From the NCBI RefSeq assembly GCF_018780565.1, contig NZ_JADMJN010000003.1, forward strand, positions 372,001 to 436,000: DNA of 64,000 nucleotides. Direction: 5' to 3'. The position numbers were made by a program, and so were the translations under genes. Each line of letters starts with the position of its first letter. The first letter of the stretch is position 1. The notes under the pieces were generated by a model. The model was given only the letters and a program-made list of their open reading frames with translations, was not told where the DNA came from and ran no database searches. This DNA is from Rhodoferax sp. (GTDB taxonomy: Bacteria; Pseudomonadota; Gammaproteobacteria; Burkholderiales; Burkholderiaceae_C). Positions 42,092 through 64,000 of this stretch are shown piece by piece.

Positions 42092-42107
42092 TGGCACAGG
42101 CATTGCT
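42092..42107 (+). promoter_or_regulatory. sigma-54 (-24/-12) promoter for cynS
   Basis: TGGCACAGGCATTGCT matches the sigma-54 consensus TGGCACG-N4-TTGCW at every specified position but one (A for the last G of the -24 block). GG and GC are at the exact spacing. Transcription would begin near 42118, about 86 bases before the cynS ATG. An imperfect inverted repeat (TTGCATCCCC / GGGGTGCC, about 42046-42066) lies upstream and could be a regulator site. Confidence 0.8.
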
Positions 42108-56857: not shown

Positions 56858-57481
56858 ATGATGCCTGCGTCCCCTCCCATGTCATCCAGCGCCCTTGACG
56901 AGGAAACTGCCCGTTCTGAGGTTTATGGACTCCTGGCCCTCTTGTTTTATGCAGTTCCAGCTCCTGAATTGATAGCGAATTTGCGCGCTGCCGCGACCGA
57001 TGCGCCCACCGCGGGTGCTTTTCTGGAAGAGCCCTGGCGTACTTTGGTGGGTGTGGCGCGTGAGATGAGCGATGCGGCCATTCAAAGCGAATACAACAGC
57101 TTGTTTGGCGGTATTGGCAAGCCAGAGGTTTACTTGTACGGCTCCCATTTCCTCAGCGGCTTCCTGAACGAAAAGCCGCTGGCCAAACTGCGTACCGATC
57201 TGGGTCAGCTGGGTCTGGCACGCGATGAGAACATGTCCGAAACCGAGGATCACTTTGCCTATTTGTGCGAAGTGATGCGCTACCTCATCGCCGGCGACGA
57301 TGTGGCCGTGGCGAACCTGACCCGTCAACGTGAGTTCTTTGCCAGTCACCTCCAGCCCTGGGTGACGATGATGTGCGACGACTTGCAGAAGCACCCGCGG
57401 GCGCAGTTTTATGCGGCACTGGCTGGATTTACCCGCGCCTTTATGGGCGTCGAAGCCCAGGGCTTTGACATGCTGGCTTAG
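56858..57481 (+). CDS. TorD/DmsD family molybdoenzyme chaperone
   Basis: A 207-residue all-helical chaperone. ARSEVYGLLALLFYAVP near the N-terminus and EYNSLFGGIGKPEVYLYGS plus EDHFAYLCEVMRYLIAGDD match TorD-like proteins. Such chaperones bind the Tat signal and cofactor-free form of a molybdoenzyme before export. The expected client is the Tat-dependent formate dehydrogenase at 61598. It ends the accessory operon and overlaps the convergent histidine kinase gene by four bases. Residues about 22-40 coincide with a dispersed repeat copy. Confidence 0.9.
   Translation: MMPASPPMSSSALDEETARSEVYGLLALLFYAVPAPELIANLRAAATDAPTAGAFLEEPWRTLVGVAREMSDAAIQSEYNSLFGGIGKPEVYLYGSHFLSGFLNEKPLAKLRTDLGQLGLARDENMSETEDHFAYLCEVMRYLIAGDDVAVANLTRQREFFASHLQPWVTMMCDDLQKHPRAQFYAALAGFTRAFMGVEAQGFDMLA
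56921..56976 (-). repeat. dispersed GCTA-N9-(T/G)AGC repeat, copy inside torD-like gene
   Basis: On the minus strand it begins GCTATCAATTCAGGAGCT, 17 of 18 identical to the gpsA copy, and ends GGGCCAGGAGTCC then ATAAAC. The middle is divergent. It is 56 bases long and in frame. Confidence 0.7.
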
Positions 57482-59568
57482 TCTTCCTGCTTTTGTGGTT
57501 CGCTCAGCAGCGAAATGCTGAACACCGCACCCGGCGCGTCTTCTCCGCGGTCGCGGCGGTTGGCCCCGCTGATGCTGCCACCGTAGCGCTCAACCAGCCC
57601 TAGGCTGATCCACAGGCCCAACCCATTGCCGTCGTTCTTGGTGGTGAAGAAGGGACGAAACAGTTTTTCACGTGCTGGCGGGCTCAGCCCCGCGCCGCTA
57701 TCCCGGACCTCGATCACCACACCGGCGCTGGTCGGCGTCTCGCCCCGATCATGTGTGTCCAGCAGCAAGGTGCCGCCTTCGGGCATGGCCTGGATCGCAT
57801 TGATCAGCAGATTGATCACCACCTGCTGCAGTTCCTGCTCGTTGATGCCAATGTTCCTGGTGGCCTGCAGCCTGCGCACGACTTCAATGCGGGTGTGTGC
57901 CAGCAGATGGCTCACCAGAACCAGTGAGTTTTCCAGTACGCGGTTCACATCCACCGTCTCCACATAGCCGGCGTATTCCGTGGGCCTTGCGTATTGCAGG
58001 AGTTGGGTGACGATCAAGCGCATGCGCTCCACTTGCTGGTCCATCAGCCGCAGCTCTGCGGCCACGGGCCTGGCATGATCGCCCAGCGTTTCACGCATCA
58101 GGTCGAGGTTGCCCTGCATCACGGCAATCGGGTTGTTGATCTCGTGCGCTACGCTGGCCGTCAGCTGGCCGATGGCTGCGAGCTTCTCTGATTTGACCAG
58201 CTTCTGCTGGGCCTGCTGCAGCGAAGCTGTGCTCTGGGCCAGTTCGTGGGTTCGCTCGGTTACTTTGGCGTCGAGTTCGCCAGCCCAGCGCTGTAGCGCA
58301 CGGGTTTTTTCGTCGATCACATCCAGCAACTGGTCCAGGTGAATGGCCAGTGCGCCAATCTCGTCGCGGGCCTCGACCGCACCAACGCGTGCACTTGTGT
58401 CGCCTTCCTCTGCATGCTGCATGGTGCGGTTCATCTGCTCCACCGGGCGAAAGATGCTGCGGGCCCAGCGTACCGAGAACACGGCGGCGAGCACGATCAC
58501 GAACAGGAAAATACCGATGATCAGGCTCAGAATGTTGTACTTGACCAGACGGAAAGGCTCTTCCAGATAACCCACGTAGAGCATGCCGACGCGCCGGCCA
58601 GCTGCATCCATCAGCGGCTCGTACGCTGATACATACCAGTCGTTCACCACGAAGGCCCGGTCCAGCCAAGTGTCCCCGCGAGCCAGGACAGCATCACGCA
58701 CGGCCTGCGACACCCGGGTGCCGATGGCGCGCTGGTCCTGGAACAAGCGCACGTTGGTGGTAATGCGAACATCGTCCATGAACAGGGTGGCGGTTCCATT
58801 GCTGCCAAAGGGAAGCGAGCCGTCGGGATAGACGATCCGGTTGATGTGGTCAATGAGGTCCAGGTTCTGGTTGAGCAGGACGCCGCCTCGCAGCAGCGCC
58901 AGCGTTTCGCCCTTCAAGCCCAGCACGGGCGTATTCGACAGCATCACCAGTGCGCGGTCTTCAACCGTCCGCTCGATAGGTGCTGCGCCACGCGTGGCAA
59001 TCAGCGGGATCCGGATGCGTGGCGCCAGATGAGGCGCCAGGGCCAGCAGCTCATTGGCGTTGAGCAAGGTCAGGCTGGCGTTGCGGGGTGCCGGTTGATG
59101 CGTGCTTGCCATACCGGACGCTGTTGCCCTCAGTGCTGCGCTGGTGGATTGTGCGGATTGATGAGAGGGTGTCCAGTCGGCAGTGAGCAGGACTCCTTGC
59201 GGGCTGTAAAGATTGATGAAGTCAAAGCCGAGTCGACGCCGTTCCTTTTCCAGCAGAACCTGCAGGCTCTGCAAGTCATGTTGCGCCAGGGCCAGATGCA
59301 GGGTGTGCGATTGGGCCACGGCCAGCGTGCCAGAACCGACCTCGCCCAGGACTTGTCCAAAGTAGCCGCGAGCCACGGCCAGATCGCTGCGCACTTTGGT
59401 GATCAGGAGCCGGTCATAGGCTGCATTGCCCCAGATCACAAGCGCGCCAAGCAGAAGGGGTAGGACCACCAGCAAGGGCAGCAGTGCCATGGCCAGCAGT
59501 TTGTTGCGGATGGAACGGGTGAGCCAGCGCGGTGCCAGCAGGTTATGCAGCTTCACATAAGGGCCCAT
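57478..59568 (-). CDS. two-component sensor histidine kinase
   Basis: A 696-residue membrane kinase. Two transmembrane segments (about 24-46 and 345-367) flank a large periplasmic sensor domain of the double-Cache type. A HAMP domain (about 365-420), a coiled coil, the phosphoacceptor His475 (SVAHEINNP) and an HATPase domain with N, G1 and G2 boxes (VINLLINAIQAM, DSGAGLSPP, GNGLGLWIS) follow. It should sense a periplasmic ligand, perhaps formate or a redox signal; the ligand is unknown. It overlaps its response regulator gene by 16 bases and is convergent with the torD-like gene. Confidence 0.92.
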   Translation of the reverse strand: MGPYVKLHNLLAPRWLTRSIRNKLLAMALLPLLVVLPLLLGALVIWGNAAYDRLLITKVRSDLAVARGYFGQVLGEVGSGTLAVAQSHTLHLALAQHDLQSLQVLLEKERRRLGFDFINLYSPQGVLLTADWTPSHQSAQSTSAALRATASGMASTHQPAPRNASLTLLNANELLALAPHLAPRIRIPLIATRGAAPIERTVEDRALVMLSNTPVLGLKGETLALLRGGVLLNQNLDLIDHINRIVYPDGSLPFGSNGTATLFMDDVRITTNVRLFQDQRAIGTRVSQAVRDAVLARGDTWLDRAFVVNDWYVSAYEPLMDAAGRRVGMLYVGYLEEPFRLVKYNILSLIIGIFLFVIVLAAVFSVRWARSIFRPVEQMNRTMQHAEEGDTSARVGAVEARDEIGALAIHLDQLLDVIDEKTRALQRWAGELDAKVTERTHELAQSTASLQQAQQKLVKSEKLAAIGQLTASVAHEINNPIAVMQGNLDLMRETLGDHARPVAAELRLMDQQVERMRLIVTQLLQYARPTEYAGYVETVDVNRVLENSLVLVSHLLAHTRIEVVRRLQATRNIGINEQELQQVVINLLINAIQAMPEGGTLLLDTHDRGETPTSAGVVIEVRDSGAGLSPPAREKLFRPFFTTKNDGNGLGLWISLGLVERYGGSISGANRRDRGEDAPGAVFSISLLSEPQKQED

Positions 59569-60968
59569 TCGGCGCAGCGCCGCTCCAGCGTGCGCCGCGA
59601 AATGCCGAGCAATTGAGCGGCCCGGGTCTTGTCTCCCTGCACCGAGTCGAGAATCGTGCAGATATGCTGCTTTTCCAGGGTTTGCAGATCGGTCGCCGCA
59701 GCGCCCGGTGCTGTGGCCGTTGCAGGGGCTGATGCATCTTTCCCCAGCGAATACAGTGCCGAGACATTCAATGCCCCCAGGATCAGGGAGCGCTCAATCA
59801 GGTTGCGCAACTCTCTGACATTGCCGGGCCAGTCGTACTGCATCAGGTAGCTCATCTGCGCCGCAGAAATGTCCAGGGGTGCTGCGCCCAGGACAGGCGC
59901 CAGGTTGGCCATGAAGTGCTGCACCAACTCGGCGATGTCTTCCTTGTGCTCACGCAAGGGAGGCAGCGTGATTTCGACCACCTGCAGGCGGTAGTAGAGA
60001 TCTTTGCGAAAGCGCCCGGCAGCCACTTCTTCGATCAGGGATCGGTTGGTGGCGGCAATGATGCGCACATTCAACGGCAGCAGCTTTTCGCTGCCAACTG
60101 GACGGATCTGGAGATCCTCCAGGGTGCGCAGCAGCGTGGCCTGCACCGGCAAAGGCAGGTCGGCCACTTCATCCAGAAACAGGGTACCGCCCTGGGCGTA
60201 ATAAAACAGGCCATCGCGTGCCTTGGTGGCGCCTGCGAAGGCCCCCTTGGCGTGACCAAAGAGCTCGCTTTCGATCAGCTCGGGCGACATGGATGCGCAA
60301 TTGACCGGCACGAACGGGCCCTGGGCGCGCGGGCTTAAGTGATGCAGTGCGCGGGCCACCAGTTCCTTGCCGGTGCCAGACTCTCCCTGCAGCAACACGG
60401 TGCTGTTCACGGCAGCCACTCGCCCCAACGATTGCGACACGCCGCGCATGACCGAGGACTGGCCCACCAGTCCACTGCCGATATCCTGGCGCACCGACAG
60501 GGTGTGGCGCAGCACGTAATTTTCCCGGGCCAGCCGGGAATTTTCGTGGCAATGCTTCACGGCGTTGAGAATCTGCGGCACCCGAAAGGGTTTGAGAATG
60601 AAATCCGAGGCCCCGGCGCGCAGCGCTTCAATGGCCGTTTCCAGGTCGGCAAAGGCGGTGATCAGAATGACTTGGCCCGAGAAACCCTGCTCGCGAAGCT
60701 CTTTGAGCCAACTGACCCCGTTGCGACCCGGCAGCGAGATATCCAGAATGATCAGATCGACGTGAGTCTGTCGCAGTATTTCGGCGCCTTCTTCCGCGCT
60801 ACCCGCACTCATCACCGACTGGCAGCGAGGAACCAGTGTCTTCACCAGAAAGTTTCGCATGCCAGGTTCGTCGTCCACGATCAGGATCGACCAGAAGGGC
60901 CAGCCTTCAGCGCTTCGTTCATGCAGCGGGGGTGGGGTGGTGTGATCCAGGGTACTGGGTAGAGACAT
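59553..60968 (-). CDS. NtrC-family response regulator with variant GAFAGA motif
   Basis: A 471-residue regulator: receiver domain (phospho-acceptor Asp76 in ILDISLPG, with the Lys in ILKPF), AAA+ domain (Walker A GESGTGKE at 195-202, Walker B GGTLFLDE at 260-267) and a C-terminal Fis-type helix-turn-helix (QLLGISRRTLERR). The sigma-54-contacting loop is GAFAGA at 242-247; position 245 is Ala (codon GCA) where Thr is expected. It is divergent from the Tat formate dehydrogenase genes and most likely controls them through the sites at 61025-61163. Confidence 0.93.
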   Translation of the reverse strand: MSLPSTLDHTTPPPLHERSAEGWPFWSILIVDDEPGMRNFLVKTLVPRCQSVMSAGSAEEGAEILRQTHVDLIILDISLPGRNGVSWLKELREQGFSGQVILITAFADLETAIEALRAGASDFILKPFRVPQILNAVKHCHENSRLARENYVLRHTLSVRQDIGSGLVGQSSVMRGVSQSLGRVAAVNSTVLLQGESGTGKELVARALHHLSPRAQGPFVPVNCASMSPELIESELFGHAKGAFAGATKARDGLFYYAQGGTLFLDEVADLPLPVQATLLRTLEDLQIRPVGSEKLLPLNVRIIAATNRSLIEEVAAGRFRKDLYYRLQVVEITLPPLREHKEDIAELVQHFMANLAPVLGAAPLDISAAQMSYLMQYDWPGNVRELRNLIERSLILGALNVSALYSLGKDASAPATATAPGAAATDLQTLEKQHICTILDSVQGDKTRAAQLLGISRRTLERRCAEWALM

Positions 60969-61024: not shown

Positions 61025-61055
61025 CACAAATTGTGTTTGCGACAAATTGTCGCAA
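61025..61055. promoter_or_regulatory. paired upstream activator sites
   Basis: CACAAATTGTG (61025-61035) and TTGCGACAAATTGTCGCAA (61037-61055) are both perfect palindromes around a central A and share ACAAATTGT, with centres 16 bases apart. They lie about 145 and 129 bases before the predicted sigma-54 start site, the usual range for NtrC-type enhancers. They are also 57-87 bases from the regulator's own ATG, so autoregulation is possible. Confidence 0.7.
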
Positions 61056-61148
61056 CAGGTTTGCCAAATTGACGCTGGTGTGGCTGTGTCATTTGCCCAA
61101 ATGAGCTGATGTCGTTGATTTGGATAGACGGTATGCCAGCATTGAAGA

Positions 61149-61163
61149 TGGCATGGTTTCTGC
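61149..61163 (+). promoter_or_regulatory. sigma-54-type promoter for the Tat formate dehydrogenase genes
   Basis: TGGCATGGTTTCTGC matches TGGCACG-N4-TTGC at all but two specified positions (T for C, C for T), with GG and GC at the exact spacing. Transcription would start near 61175, about 170 bases before the first ATG at 61345. Confidence 0.65.
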
Positions 61164-61344
61164 GTAGGCTTCAACGACGACACGGTAGTGCTGACCTGTG
61201 AATTTGATAAATGACAAAGTGTATCGGCGTCGGGTTGGGGCAAGGGTTTATTTCTACTTGCTGAAATGTTTCGTGCTCGCTATATTCGCCAGAAGTTCCG
61301 ATATGCAGTCCAGTTCCTAGGCGGAACTTTTCAGGAGACACAAG

Positions 61345-61554
61345 ATGAGTCAATCCACGTCCCGGTTATCACGGCGCACCTTGTTTGCGGGCGCCGGTGC
61401 TGTTGGCGCCCTCACGACCGCAGCCAGTCTGATGCCCGTGATTCAGCAGCAGGCCGTTCCCGCCAACTTGCAGCCCAAAGCGATGCCGGACAGGGGTGGT
61501 GGTTACAGCCTGAGCGCGCATGTCAAACAGTATTACAAGACGACACTCGTCTGA
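61345..61554 (+). CDS. formate dehydrogenase region Tat-target small protein
   Basis: A 69-residue protein with a twin-arginine signal (SRRTLFAGAGAVGAL, Arg10-Arg11) and a short mature part ending YSLSAHVKQYYKTTLV. It matches the small 'formate dehydrogenase region TAT target' family that precedes periplasmic formate dehydrogenase genes; its function is unknown, and a structural or assembly role is likely. AGGAG precedes the ATG. The alpha-subunit gene follows after 43 bases. Confidence 0.9.
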   Translation: MSQSTSRLSRRTLFAGAGAVGALTTAASLMPVIQQQAVPANLQPKAMPDRGGGYSLSAHVKQYYKTTLV

Positions 61555-61597: not shown

Positions 61598-64000
61598 ATG
61601 TTGTTGACCAAAAAATCGGGTTCGTCCGATACCGCTTCCCGTTCACCCTTTGTGCACAGCTTGCGCCGTGGTTTGTCCCAGGCCTTGCCGACCATGGACC
61701 GGCGTGCCTTTTTGCGCCGCTCCGGCATGGGTGTGGGTGTGGGCCTTGCCGCTTCGCAATTGACGCTGGTCAAAAAAGCCGGTGCAGCGCAAGGTGCTGT
61801 CGCGGTGGGCGAGGGGAAAATTGAAATCAAACGCACGATATGCACCCATTGTTCGGTAGGGTGTGCAGTCGACGCAGTGGTCGAAAACGGTGTGTGGGTA
61901 CGTCAAGAGCCGGTGTTCGACTCCCCGATCAATCTAGGTGCTCATTGCGCCAAAGGCGCAGCTTTGCGCGAGCATGGCCACGGCGAGTTCCGTTTGCGTT
62001 ACCCCATGAAACTGGTCAACGGCAAGTACGAGCGCATCAGCTGGGATACAGCGCTGACCGAAATCAGCGCCAAGTTGATGGAGCTGCGCAAAGCCAGCGG
62101 ACCGGATTCGATCTATTGGGTGGGCTCATCCAAGCACAATAACGAGCAGGCCTACCTGTTGCGCAAATTTGTGAGTTTCTGGGGCTCCAACAACTGTGAC
62201 CACCAGGCCCGTATCTGTCACTCCACCACAGTGGCCGGTGTGGCCAACACCTGGGGCTATGGGGCCATGACCAATTCGTACAACGACATGCAGAACAGCA
62301 AGGTCGCCCTGTACATTGGCTCCAACGCGGCAGAGGCGCATCCGGTGAGCATGTTGCACATGCTGCACGCCAAGGAGAATGGCTGCAAGATGATCGTGGT
62401 AGACCCACGCTTCACGCGAACCGCCGCCAAAGCGGACGAGTACGTGCGCATTCGCTCGGGCTCTGACATTCCCTTTTTGTTTGGTCTGCTCCACCATATT
62501 TTCAAGAACGGCTGGGAAGACAAGAAGTACATCAATGACCGTGTCTACGGCATGGACAAGGTCAAGGAAGATGTGCTCACCAAATGGACACCGGACAAGG
62601 TGGAGGAAGCCTGCGGCGTCAAAGAAGCGCAGATGATCAAGATCGCGACCATGCTCAACGAGAGCCGTCCCGGCACCATCGTGTGGTGCATGGGGCAGAC
62701 CCAGCACAGTATCGGCAACGCCATGGTGCGTGCTTCGTGCATCTTGCAGTTGGCCTTGGGCAACGTGGGCAAGTCCGGTGGCGGCACCAACATTTTCCGC
62801 GGCCATGACAACGTGCAGGGAGCTACCGACGTTGGCCCCAACCCCGATTCCTTGCCCGGCTATTACGGTATTGTGGAAGGCTCATGGAAGCATTTCGCCA
62901 AAGCCTGGGGCGTTGATTTTGAATGGATCAAGGGCCGGTTTTCATCGCCTGCGATGATGAGCAAGCCCGGCATCACCGTGTCGCGCTGGATTGACGGCGT
63001 GCTGGAGAAAAACGAGCTGATTGACCAGGACTCCAATCTGCGTGGCGTGTTCTATTGGGGCCATGCACCCAACTCCCAGACCCGCGGGCTGGAGATGAAG
63101 CGTGCCATGGACAAGCTTGATTTGCTGGTGGTGGTGGACCCCTATCCATCGGCCACGGCAGCCATGGCCGCCATGCCTGGCAAGGCGGAAGATTTAAACC
63201 CCAACCGTTCGGTGTATTTGCTGCCCGCGGCCACGCAGTTCGAAACCAGTGGTTCGGTGACGGCTTCCAACCGTTCGATTCAATGGCGTGAAAAAGTGAT
63301 TGAGCCCTTGTGGGAGAGCCGTAGCGACCACATGATCATGCAGCAGTTCGCCGACAAGCTCGGCTTTGGCAAGGAACTGTCCAAGAACTACAAGATGCAA
63401 AAGGTCAAAGGCATGGACGAACCCATGCCCGAAGACATCCTGCGCGAGATCAACAAGTCGGTGTGGACCATCGGCTACACCGGCCAAAGTCCGGAGCGTC
63501 TCAAAGCGCACATGCGCAACATGAACCTGTTTGACGTCAAAACGCTCAAGGCCAAAGGCGGCAAGGACAAGGAAACCGGATACGACTTCACGGGTGACTA
63601 CTTTGGCCTTCCCTGGCCTTGCTATGGCACCCCGGCGCTCAAGCACCCGGGTTCCCCCAACCTGTATGACACCTCCAAGCATGTGATGGATGGCGGCGGC
63701 AACTTCCGCGCCAATTTTGGCGTGGAGCGTGAAGGCAAGAATTTGCTGGCCGAGGATGGGTCCCACTCCAAAGGCGCTGACATCACCACAGGCTATCCGG
63801 AACTGGACCATGTGCTGCTCAAGAAACTGGGCTGGTGGGATGAGTTGAATGAGGCCGAAAAAACAGCGGCTGAAGGCAAGAACTGGAAGACCGATGCCTC
63901 CGGCGGCATGATCCGCGTGTTCATGCAAAACCATGGTTGCCACCCGTTTGGCAATGCCAAGGCGCGTGCCGTGGTGTGGAACTTCCCCGATGCGATTCCG
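61598..64000 (+). CDS. Tat-exported formate dehydrogenase alpha subunit, N-terminal part
   Basis: 801 codons are present with no stop; the gene runs off the right edge. A Tat signal (DRRAFLRRSGMGVGVG, Arg35-Arg36) sends it to the periplasm. The [4Fe-4S] ligands are Cys82, Cys85, Cys89 and Cys117 (ICTHCSVGC). The molybdenum ligand is Cys207 followed by His208 (RICHSTT), so no selenocysteine is used. It matches the respiratory formate dehydrogenase group (FdnG/FdoG-like), which passes electrons through an Fe-S beta and a cytochrome b gamma subunit to quinone; those genes should follow the window. GGAGA precedes the ATG at 61598. Confidence 0.94.
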   Translation, partial: MLLTKKSGSSDTASRSPFVHSLRRGLSQALPTMDRRAFLRRSGMGVGVGLAASQLTLVKKAGAAQGAVAVGEGKIEIKRTICTHCSVGCAVDAVVENGVWVRQEPVFDSPINLGAHCAKGAALREHGHGEFRLRYPMKLVNGKYERISWDTALTEISAKLMELRKASGPDSIYWVGSSKHNNEQAYLLRKFVSFWGSNNCDHQARICHSTTVAGVANTWGYGAMTNSYNDMQNSKVALYIGSNAAEAHPVSMLHMLHAKENGCKMIVVDPRFTRTAAKADEYVRIRSGSDIPFLFGLLHHIFKNGWEDKKYINDRVYGMDKVKEDVLTKWTPDKVEEACGVKEAQMIKIATMLNESRPGTIVWCMGQTQHSIGNAMVRASCILQLALGNVGKSGGGTNIFRGHDNVQGATDVGPNPDSLPGYYGIVEGSWKHFAKAWGVDFEWIKGRFSSPAMMSKPGITVSRWIDGVLEKNELIDQDSNLRGVFYWGHAPNSQTRGLEMKRAMDKLDLLVVVDPYPSATAAMAAMPGKAEDLNPNRSVYLLPAATQFETSGSVTASNRSIQWREKVIEPLWESRSDHMIMQQFADKLGFGKELSKNYKMQKVKGMDEPMPEDILREINKSVWTIGYTGQSPERLKAHMRNMNLFDVKTLKAKGGKDKETGYDFTGDYFGLPWPCYGTPALKHPGSPNLYDTSKHVMDGGGNFRANFGVEREGKNLLAEDGSHSKGADITTGYPELDHVLLKKLGWWDELNEAEKTAAEGKNWKTDASGGMIRVFMQNHGCHPFGNAKARAVVWNFPDAIP

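Follow-up and report, generated by a model that had tools for sequence, protein, structure and literature searches.

The window analysed here, a stretch of 64,000 nucleotides of a Rhodoferax genome, carries close to its end the start of a formate dehydrogenase operon and, divergent to it, the genes of a two-component system:

57478..59568, minus strand: membrane sensor histidine kinase with sCache_3, HAMP, HisKA and HATPase domains, overlapping the regulator gene by 16 bp
59553..60968, minus strand: NtrC-family response regulator with the order REC-AAA+-Fis HTH
61345..61554, plus strand: small Tat-signal protein of 69 amino acids, 'formate dehydrogenase region TAT target' (TIGR02811, below cut-off)
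61598..64000, plus strand: fdhA, the Tat-signal molybdopterin formate dehydrogenase catalytic subunit in its Cys form, running past the window end

The 69-residue protein scores 31.4 bits against TIGR02811, under the family cut-off of 48.45. Frames resembling fdhB and fdhC, named solely from their translated starts, follow fdhA outside the window, while the upstream genes on the plus strand encode a polyferredoxin and a TorD-like chaperone. The domain content of the two minus-strand genes bears out what a sequence-only reading of this DNA had proposed, a divergent NtrC-type regulator accompanied by a membrane kinase. Neither a named regulator of the fdh operon nor an experiment on this regulator family was found in the literature.

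The following elements were recognised between the divergent genes:

61025..61035, no strand assigned: CACAAATTGTG, the second palindrome of the sequence-only reading, without conservation in relatives
61037..61055, no strand assigned: predicted main operator (UAS), the palindrome TTGCGACAA-A-TTGTCGCAA
61061..61075, no strand assigned: second, degenerate site TTGCCAAATTGACGC, its centre 22 bp (about two helical turns) downstream of that of the main site
61108..61120, plus strand: degenerate IHF-like site GATGTCGTTGATT with 2 mismatches, where relatives with an intact sigma-54-contact loop have YAANNNNTTGATW
61149..61164, plus strand: -24/-12 (sigma-54-type) element TGGCATGGTTTCTGCG, conserved in position in relatives, with a weak -12 (TGCG)
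61258..61286, plus strand: sigma-70-type promoter TTGCTG-N17-TATATT, about 59 bp before the TAT gene, on which the hits converge across loci

Whole-genome searches with the regulator, together with fetched stretches, yielded 145 orthologues, and in 70 loci the regulator gene is divergent to TAT-fdhA or fdhA. With up to 3 mismatches allowed, the exact 19-bp palindrome TTGCGACAAATTGTCGCAA at 61037-61055 is the single match in the window, where chance would give 0.07, and across the 4.08 Mb genome it is the sole match when 0-2 mismatches are allowed; its core GCGACAANTTGTCGC is also genome-unique at 0 mismatches. The search of other genomes carrying the regulator that had been suggested earlier recovered this palindrome in all 70 fdh-linked loci, with 12-14 of the 14 consensus positions matched. 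These data support the assignment of the palindrome as the operator of the divergent regulator, which we infer to bind there. Two perfect palindromes with centres 16 bp apart had been described at this place, and both sequences and their spacing are present, as are the distances of 129 and 145 bp to the predicted start; CACAAATTGTG, however, was rejected as a part of the operator, since over the 70 orthologous loci the score at an offset of -16 is 3.66/14 and that of the background 3.63. That pairing had overlooked the conserved partner on the downstream side at 61061-61075, the offset of +22 being the best secondary one across the same loci (5.89/14; the copy in the window reaches 10/14). Conservation of the palindrome in every linked locus, together with the divergent kinase-regulator pair, strongly supports the earlier proposal of a dedicated sensor-regulator circuit for the Tat-exported formate dehydrogenase. 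The same palindrome precedes Sec-type fdnG-like genes, rather than TAT-fdhA, in some members of the clade (L220, L224, L210, L027 and L200).

The sequence GAFTGA in the AAA+ domain is the customary test of a working sigma-54 activator, and sigma-54 promoters are regarded as strictly dependent on it. In the window regulator this loop reads GAFAGA, as seen from the sequence and the alignment:

60234..60236, minus strand: codon GCA for Ala245, changing GAFTGA to GAFAGA in the sigma-54-contact loop

The identical replacement of Thr by Ala is known as T86A in PspF, where it leaves the ATPase intact and abolishes engagement of the sigma-54 closed complex; rings mixed with wild-type subunits are inefficient as well (PMC4132715). 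PspF T86A is a laboratory mutant, whereas GAFAGA in the window is a natural allele that recurs in several lineages. The window regulator has probably lost sigma-54 activity.

In order to place this change, a tree of 144 regulators was built with the loop columns left out. The fdh-associated regulators form a well supported clade of 95 members, of which 30 retain the loop intact and 65 have it altered or missing, the alterations comprising Ala or Pro at the position of Thr, multiple substitutions (SAVKGA, PGSHGS) and deletions of up to the entire loop. Orthologues outside this clade retain GA[FY][TS]GA, with one case of GAFTGS. The tree requires 13 loop changes, of which at least 10 are forced by well supported branches and one is the minor GAFTGS; about 12 independent changes fall within the fdh clade. 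The remainder of the AAA+ domain is kept, the window showing a point change and 53 relatives full loss of the loop, and Walker A, Walker B, the arginine-finger region, the phospho-accepting Asp and the HTH are conserved in loop-less members. A profile search of genome contigs with the alignment returned mostly unrelated activators, adding to the clade only L037, L038 and L041 and to the outer family L039. Loss of sigma-54 itself was rejected as the cause, since rpoN was detected in 19 of the 20 genomes examined and the exception is an assembly 89% complete. A general decay of such loops was likewise rejected, other activators read in these genomes retaining GAFTGA, GAYTGA or close variants.

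The sigma-54-type promoter proposed earlier is present in so far as TGGCATGGTTTCTGCG has the GG-N10-GC core, at a spacing of 103 bp from the palindrome. The element is weak when taken by itself, and it is credible only because relatives have a -24/-12 at the same place. A consensus scan of the window at 1 mismatch returned 5 sites against 5.6 expected by chance, TGGCATGGTTTCTGCG not being among them, and is uninformative as evidence. Elsewhere in the window, at 42092-42107 on the plus strand, there is an exact match to TGGCACNNNNNTTGCW, to be read against the chance number of sites at 1 mismatch. Scored with approximate weights from the consensus, a -24/-12 was present in 21 of 25 intact-loop loci, 26 of 45 altered-loop loci and about 6% of shuffled sequences; in intact loci it most often lies 104-105 bp from the palindrome centre. 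The IHF-like sequence YAANNNNTTGATW, 40-43 bp upstream of -24, was seen in 12 of the 25 loci with an intact loop and in none of the 45 with an altered one, the background being 0.3%; this difference has a raw Fisher p of 5e-7, but on the tree it amounts to only 2.2 independent contrasts, all in the same direction, and is not significant.

Between the -24/-12 and the operon of the window lies the sigma-70-type promoter. In most loci, with intact or altered loop, the unconstrained best match to such a promoter keeps the same distance to the TAT gene and has a spacing of exactly 17 bp; single matches are often no better than those in shuffled sequence, and the evidence lies in this positional convergence. 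Just 3' of its -10, at 61302-61307, is the sequence TATGCA, which recurs at this place in many loci, with equivalents in L012, L018, L023, L028, L207 and L211. In the loci with a short intergenic region it is part of an inverted repeat TATGCA-N6-TGCA(TA), possibly the operator of another regulator. A further inverted repeat, AGTTCC-N5-GGAACT at 61312-61328, is located just 5' of the ribosome-binding site of the TAT gene; it is kept in the close intact-loop relatives L182, L183, L184 and L196 and absent from the loop-less clade of the same genus. The leader gave no Rfam match to a riboswitch or other known RNA.

Loop-less clades have taken different courses at this promoter region. One has a short intergenic region and has lost the -24/-12. 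Within six loci (L021, L023, L028, L207, L211 and L227), and in this group only, a fixed 58-59 bp separate the palindrome centre from the last base of a sigma-70-like -10 downstream, which puts the palindrome at about -66 from the start, the geometry of a class I activator. The other, belonging to the genus of the window (L170 and L186-L195), keeps TGGCAT-N6-TGCT near-invariant in 11 loci with one change of T to C, against an identity of 28%, as in random sequence, over 88 flanking positions; the distance from palindrome to promoter drifts there between 104 and 245 bp. These opposite fates indicate that loss of the loop and loss of the -24/-12 are not tightly coupled, and no correlation between the two was found on the tree. 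Since the -24/-12 core is kept in the window and invariant in this same-genus clade, a role of sigma-54 may persist. It is rather doubtful that selection maintains the element in L170 and L186-L195 for use with a loop-less NtrC-type protein at the enhancer, which would regulate a sigma-54 promoter with no canonical loop contact.

The explanation that best fits these observations, to which a probability of roughly 0.6 is given, is that the contact loop has been lost repeatedly and that transcription in the window has passed from sigma-54 to mainly sigma-70. The divergent kinase-regulator pair would control the Tat-exported formate dehydrogenase operon, the regulator binding the main palindrome and the weaker site 22 bp downstream. 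Sigma-54 control is very probably ancestral, and the original state would have been a normal switch with UAS, IHF site, -24/-12 and a GAFTGA-bearing AAA+ activator. The clade appears to drop the contact loop again and again, with the ATPase, receiver and DNA-binding parts remaining under constraint, and the window may represent an early stage, with the key threonine alone gone, a degenerate IHF site and a weak -12. Its regulator is most likely unable to open a sigma-54 promoter by the classical route; it would act as a phosphorylation-controlled, DNA-bound regulator, and the operon would be transcribed mainly from the sigma-70-type promoter at 61258-61286. One point against this explanation is the distance of about 245 bp by which the palindrome of the window precedes the sigma-70-type start, more than classical class I activation allows. 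The 'complete sigma-54 layout' claimed in the sequence-only reading is not upheld in view of the GAFAGA loop, the degenerate IHF-like site, the conserved sigma-70-type promoter and the repeated loop loss in relatives, some of which also lack the -24/-12.

A classical sigma-54 switch, in which the regulator activates the -24/-12 despite GAFAGA and with reduced or normal activity, would account for the UAS and the correctly built GG-N10-GC element standing 103 bp apart in the window, and for the conservation of that element in relatives. Loops with several substitutions (GVATGV) are predicted to be active at sigma-54 promoters in Desulfovibrio (PMC4641369), and GAFAGA itself is found in several lineages, the -24/-12 of some of these being good (L168, L013). 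Against this stand the inactivity of PspF T86A and the inefficiency of its mixed rings (PMC4132715), a GAFAGA clade without the -24/-12 (L163, L165 and L166) and the degenerate IHF-like site of the window. Because the threonine is gone, the IHF-like site degenerate and the -12 weak, sigma-54 activation by the window regulator is judged unlikely, and sigma-70 transcription of the operon is predicted to be more likely than such activation.

It is more doubtful still that two promoters are in use, another activator driving the -24/-12 in trans while the window regulator serves the sigma-70-type promoter or competes at the UAS. Loop-less loci conserve the two promoter-like elements, and these genomes have rpoN and other GAFTGA activators, but the upstream region showed no further conserved operator block. 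A paralogue with the same recognition helix that could supply the loop in trans was also sought, and none was seen among those activators of G000, G879 and G1162 that were read. Decay of the regulator gene into a pseudogene, with its sites as relics, would agree with the many independent loop losses but is very improbable, because loop-less members have open frames with conserved Walker A, Walker B, phospho-Asp and recognition helix and the palindrome is invariant.

Several known systems resemble the one described here. The NtrC proteins of Rhodobacter capsulatus and Caulobacter have no GAFTGA and act at sigma-70 promoters (PMC10274813); like the loop-less fdh regulators they are of the REC-AAA+-HTH type with the sigma-54-contact loop deleted and the receiver and AAA+ domains retained. 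They are nitrogen regulators in which the deletion is fixed in the lineage; the dedicated fdh regulator, by contrast, is seen at a single orthologous promoter with the loop as GAFTGA, as GAFAGA, wholly deleted and at every step between. HupR, TyrR, DhaR and VpsR are GAFTGA-defective activator homologues, the first three reported to be sigma-70 dependent (PMC3162934); they share the defective motif with the fdh regulator and differ from it in family and targets. With classical sigma-54 two-component switches such as NtrC, ZraR and DctD, the intact relatives have in common the domain order, UAS palindromes, an IHF-like site and the -24/-12, whereas the window is without the essential loop threonine, lacks a well-matching IHF site and carries in addition a sigma-70-type promoter that is conserved. 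Thus, GAFTGA-less NtrC-type proteins at sigma-70 promoters are already known, and the novelty lies in a loss that is both graded and repeated while the orthologous operator and operon stay the same, as well as in a loop-less clade that retains the -24/-12; the literature yielded no orthologue set in which members with the loop and members without it coexist on one target operon.

Distant orthologues adjoin what we take, from translated starts, to be Sec-type fdnG (read through TGA), tungstate-binding TupA, MobA/MobB or MoeA. Such neighbours, TupA-like, MobA/MobB or a Sec-type formate dehydrogenase, stand beside the regulator orthologue in L118, L121, L127, L139, L149, L150, L155, L158, L159, L161 and L229. 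This neighbourhood fits an old role in formate dehydrogenase and molybdenum/tungsten metabolism and suggests a wider molybdenum/tungsten-formate regulator family.

For the prediction of regulation, these results are a caution that the layout of sites alone is insufficient for calling sigma-54 control. A single orthologous regulator, operator and operon can be traced here from the intact loop to a single-residue change, to several substitutions and to deletion, some of these states occurring within one genus. The system therefore allows testing of how a promoter shifts from sigma-54 to sigma-70 control, and of whether loop-less NtrC proteins still serve a -24/-12 promoter.
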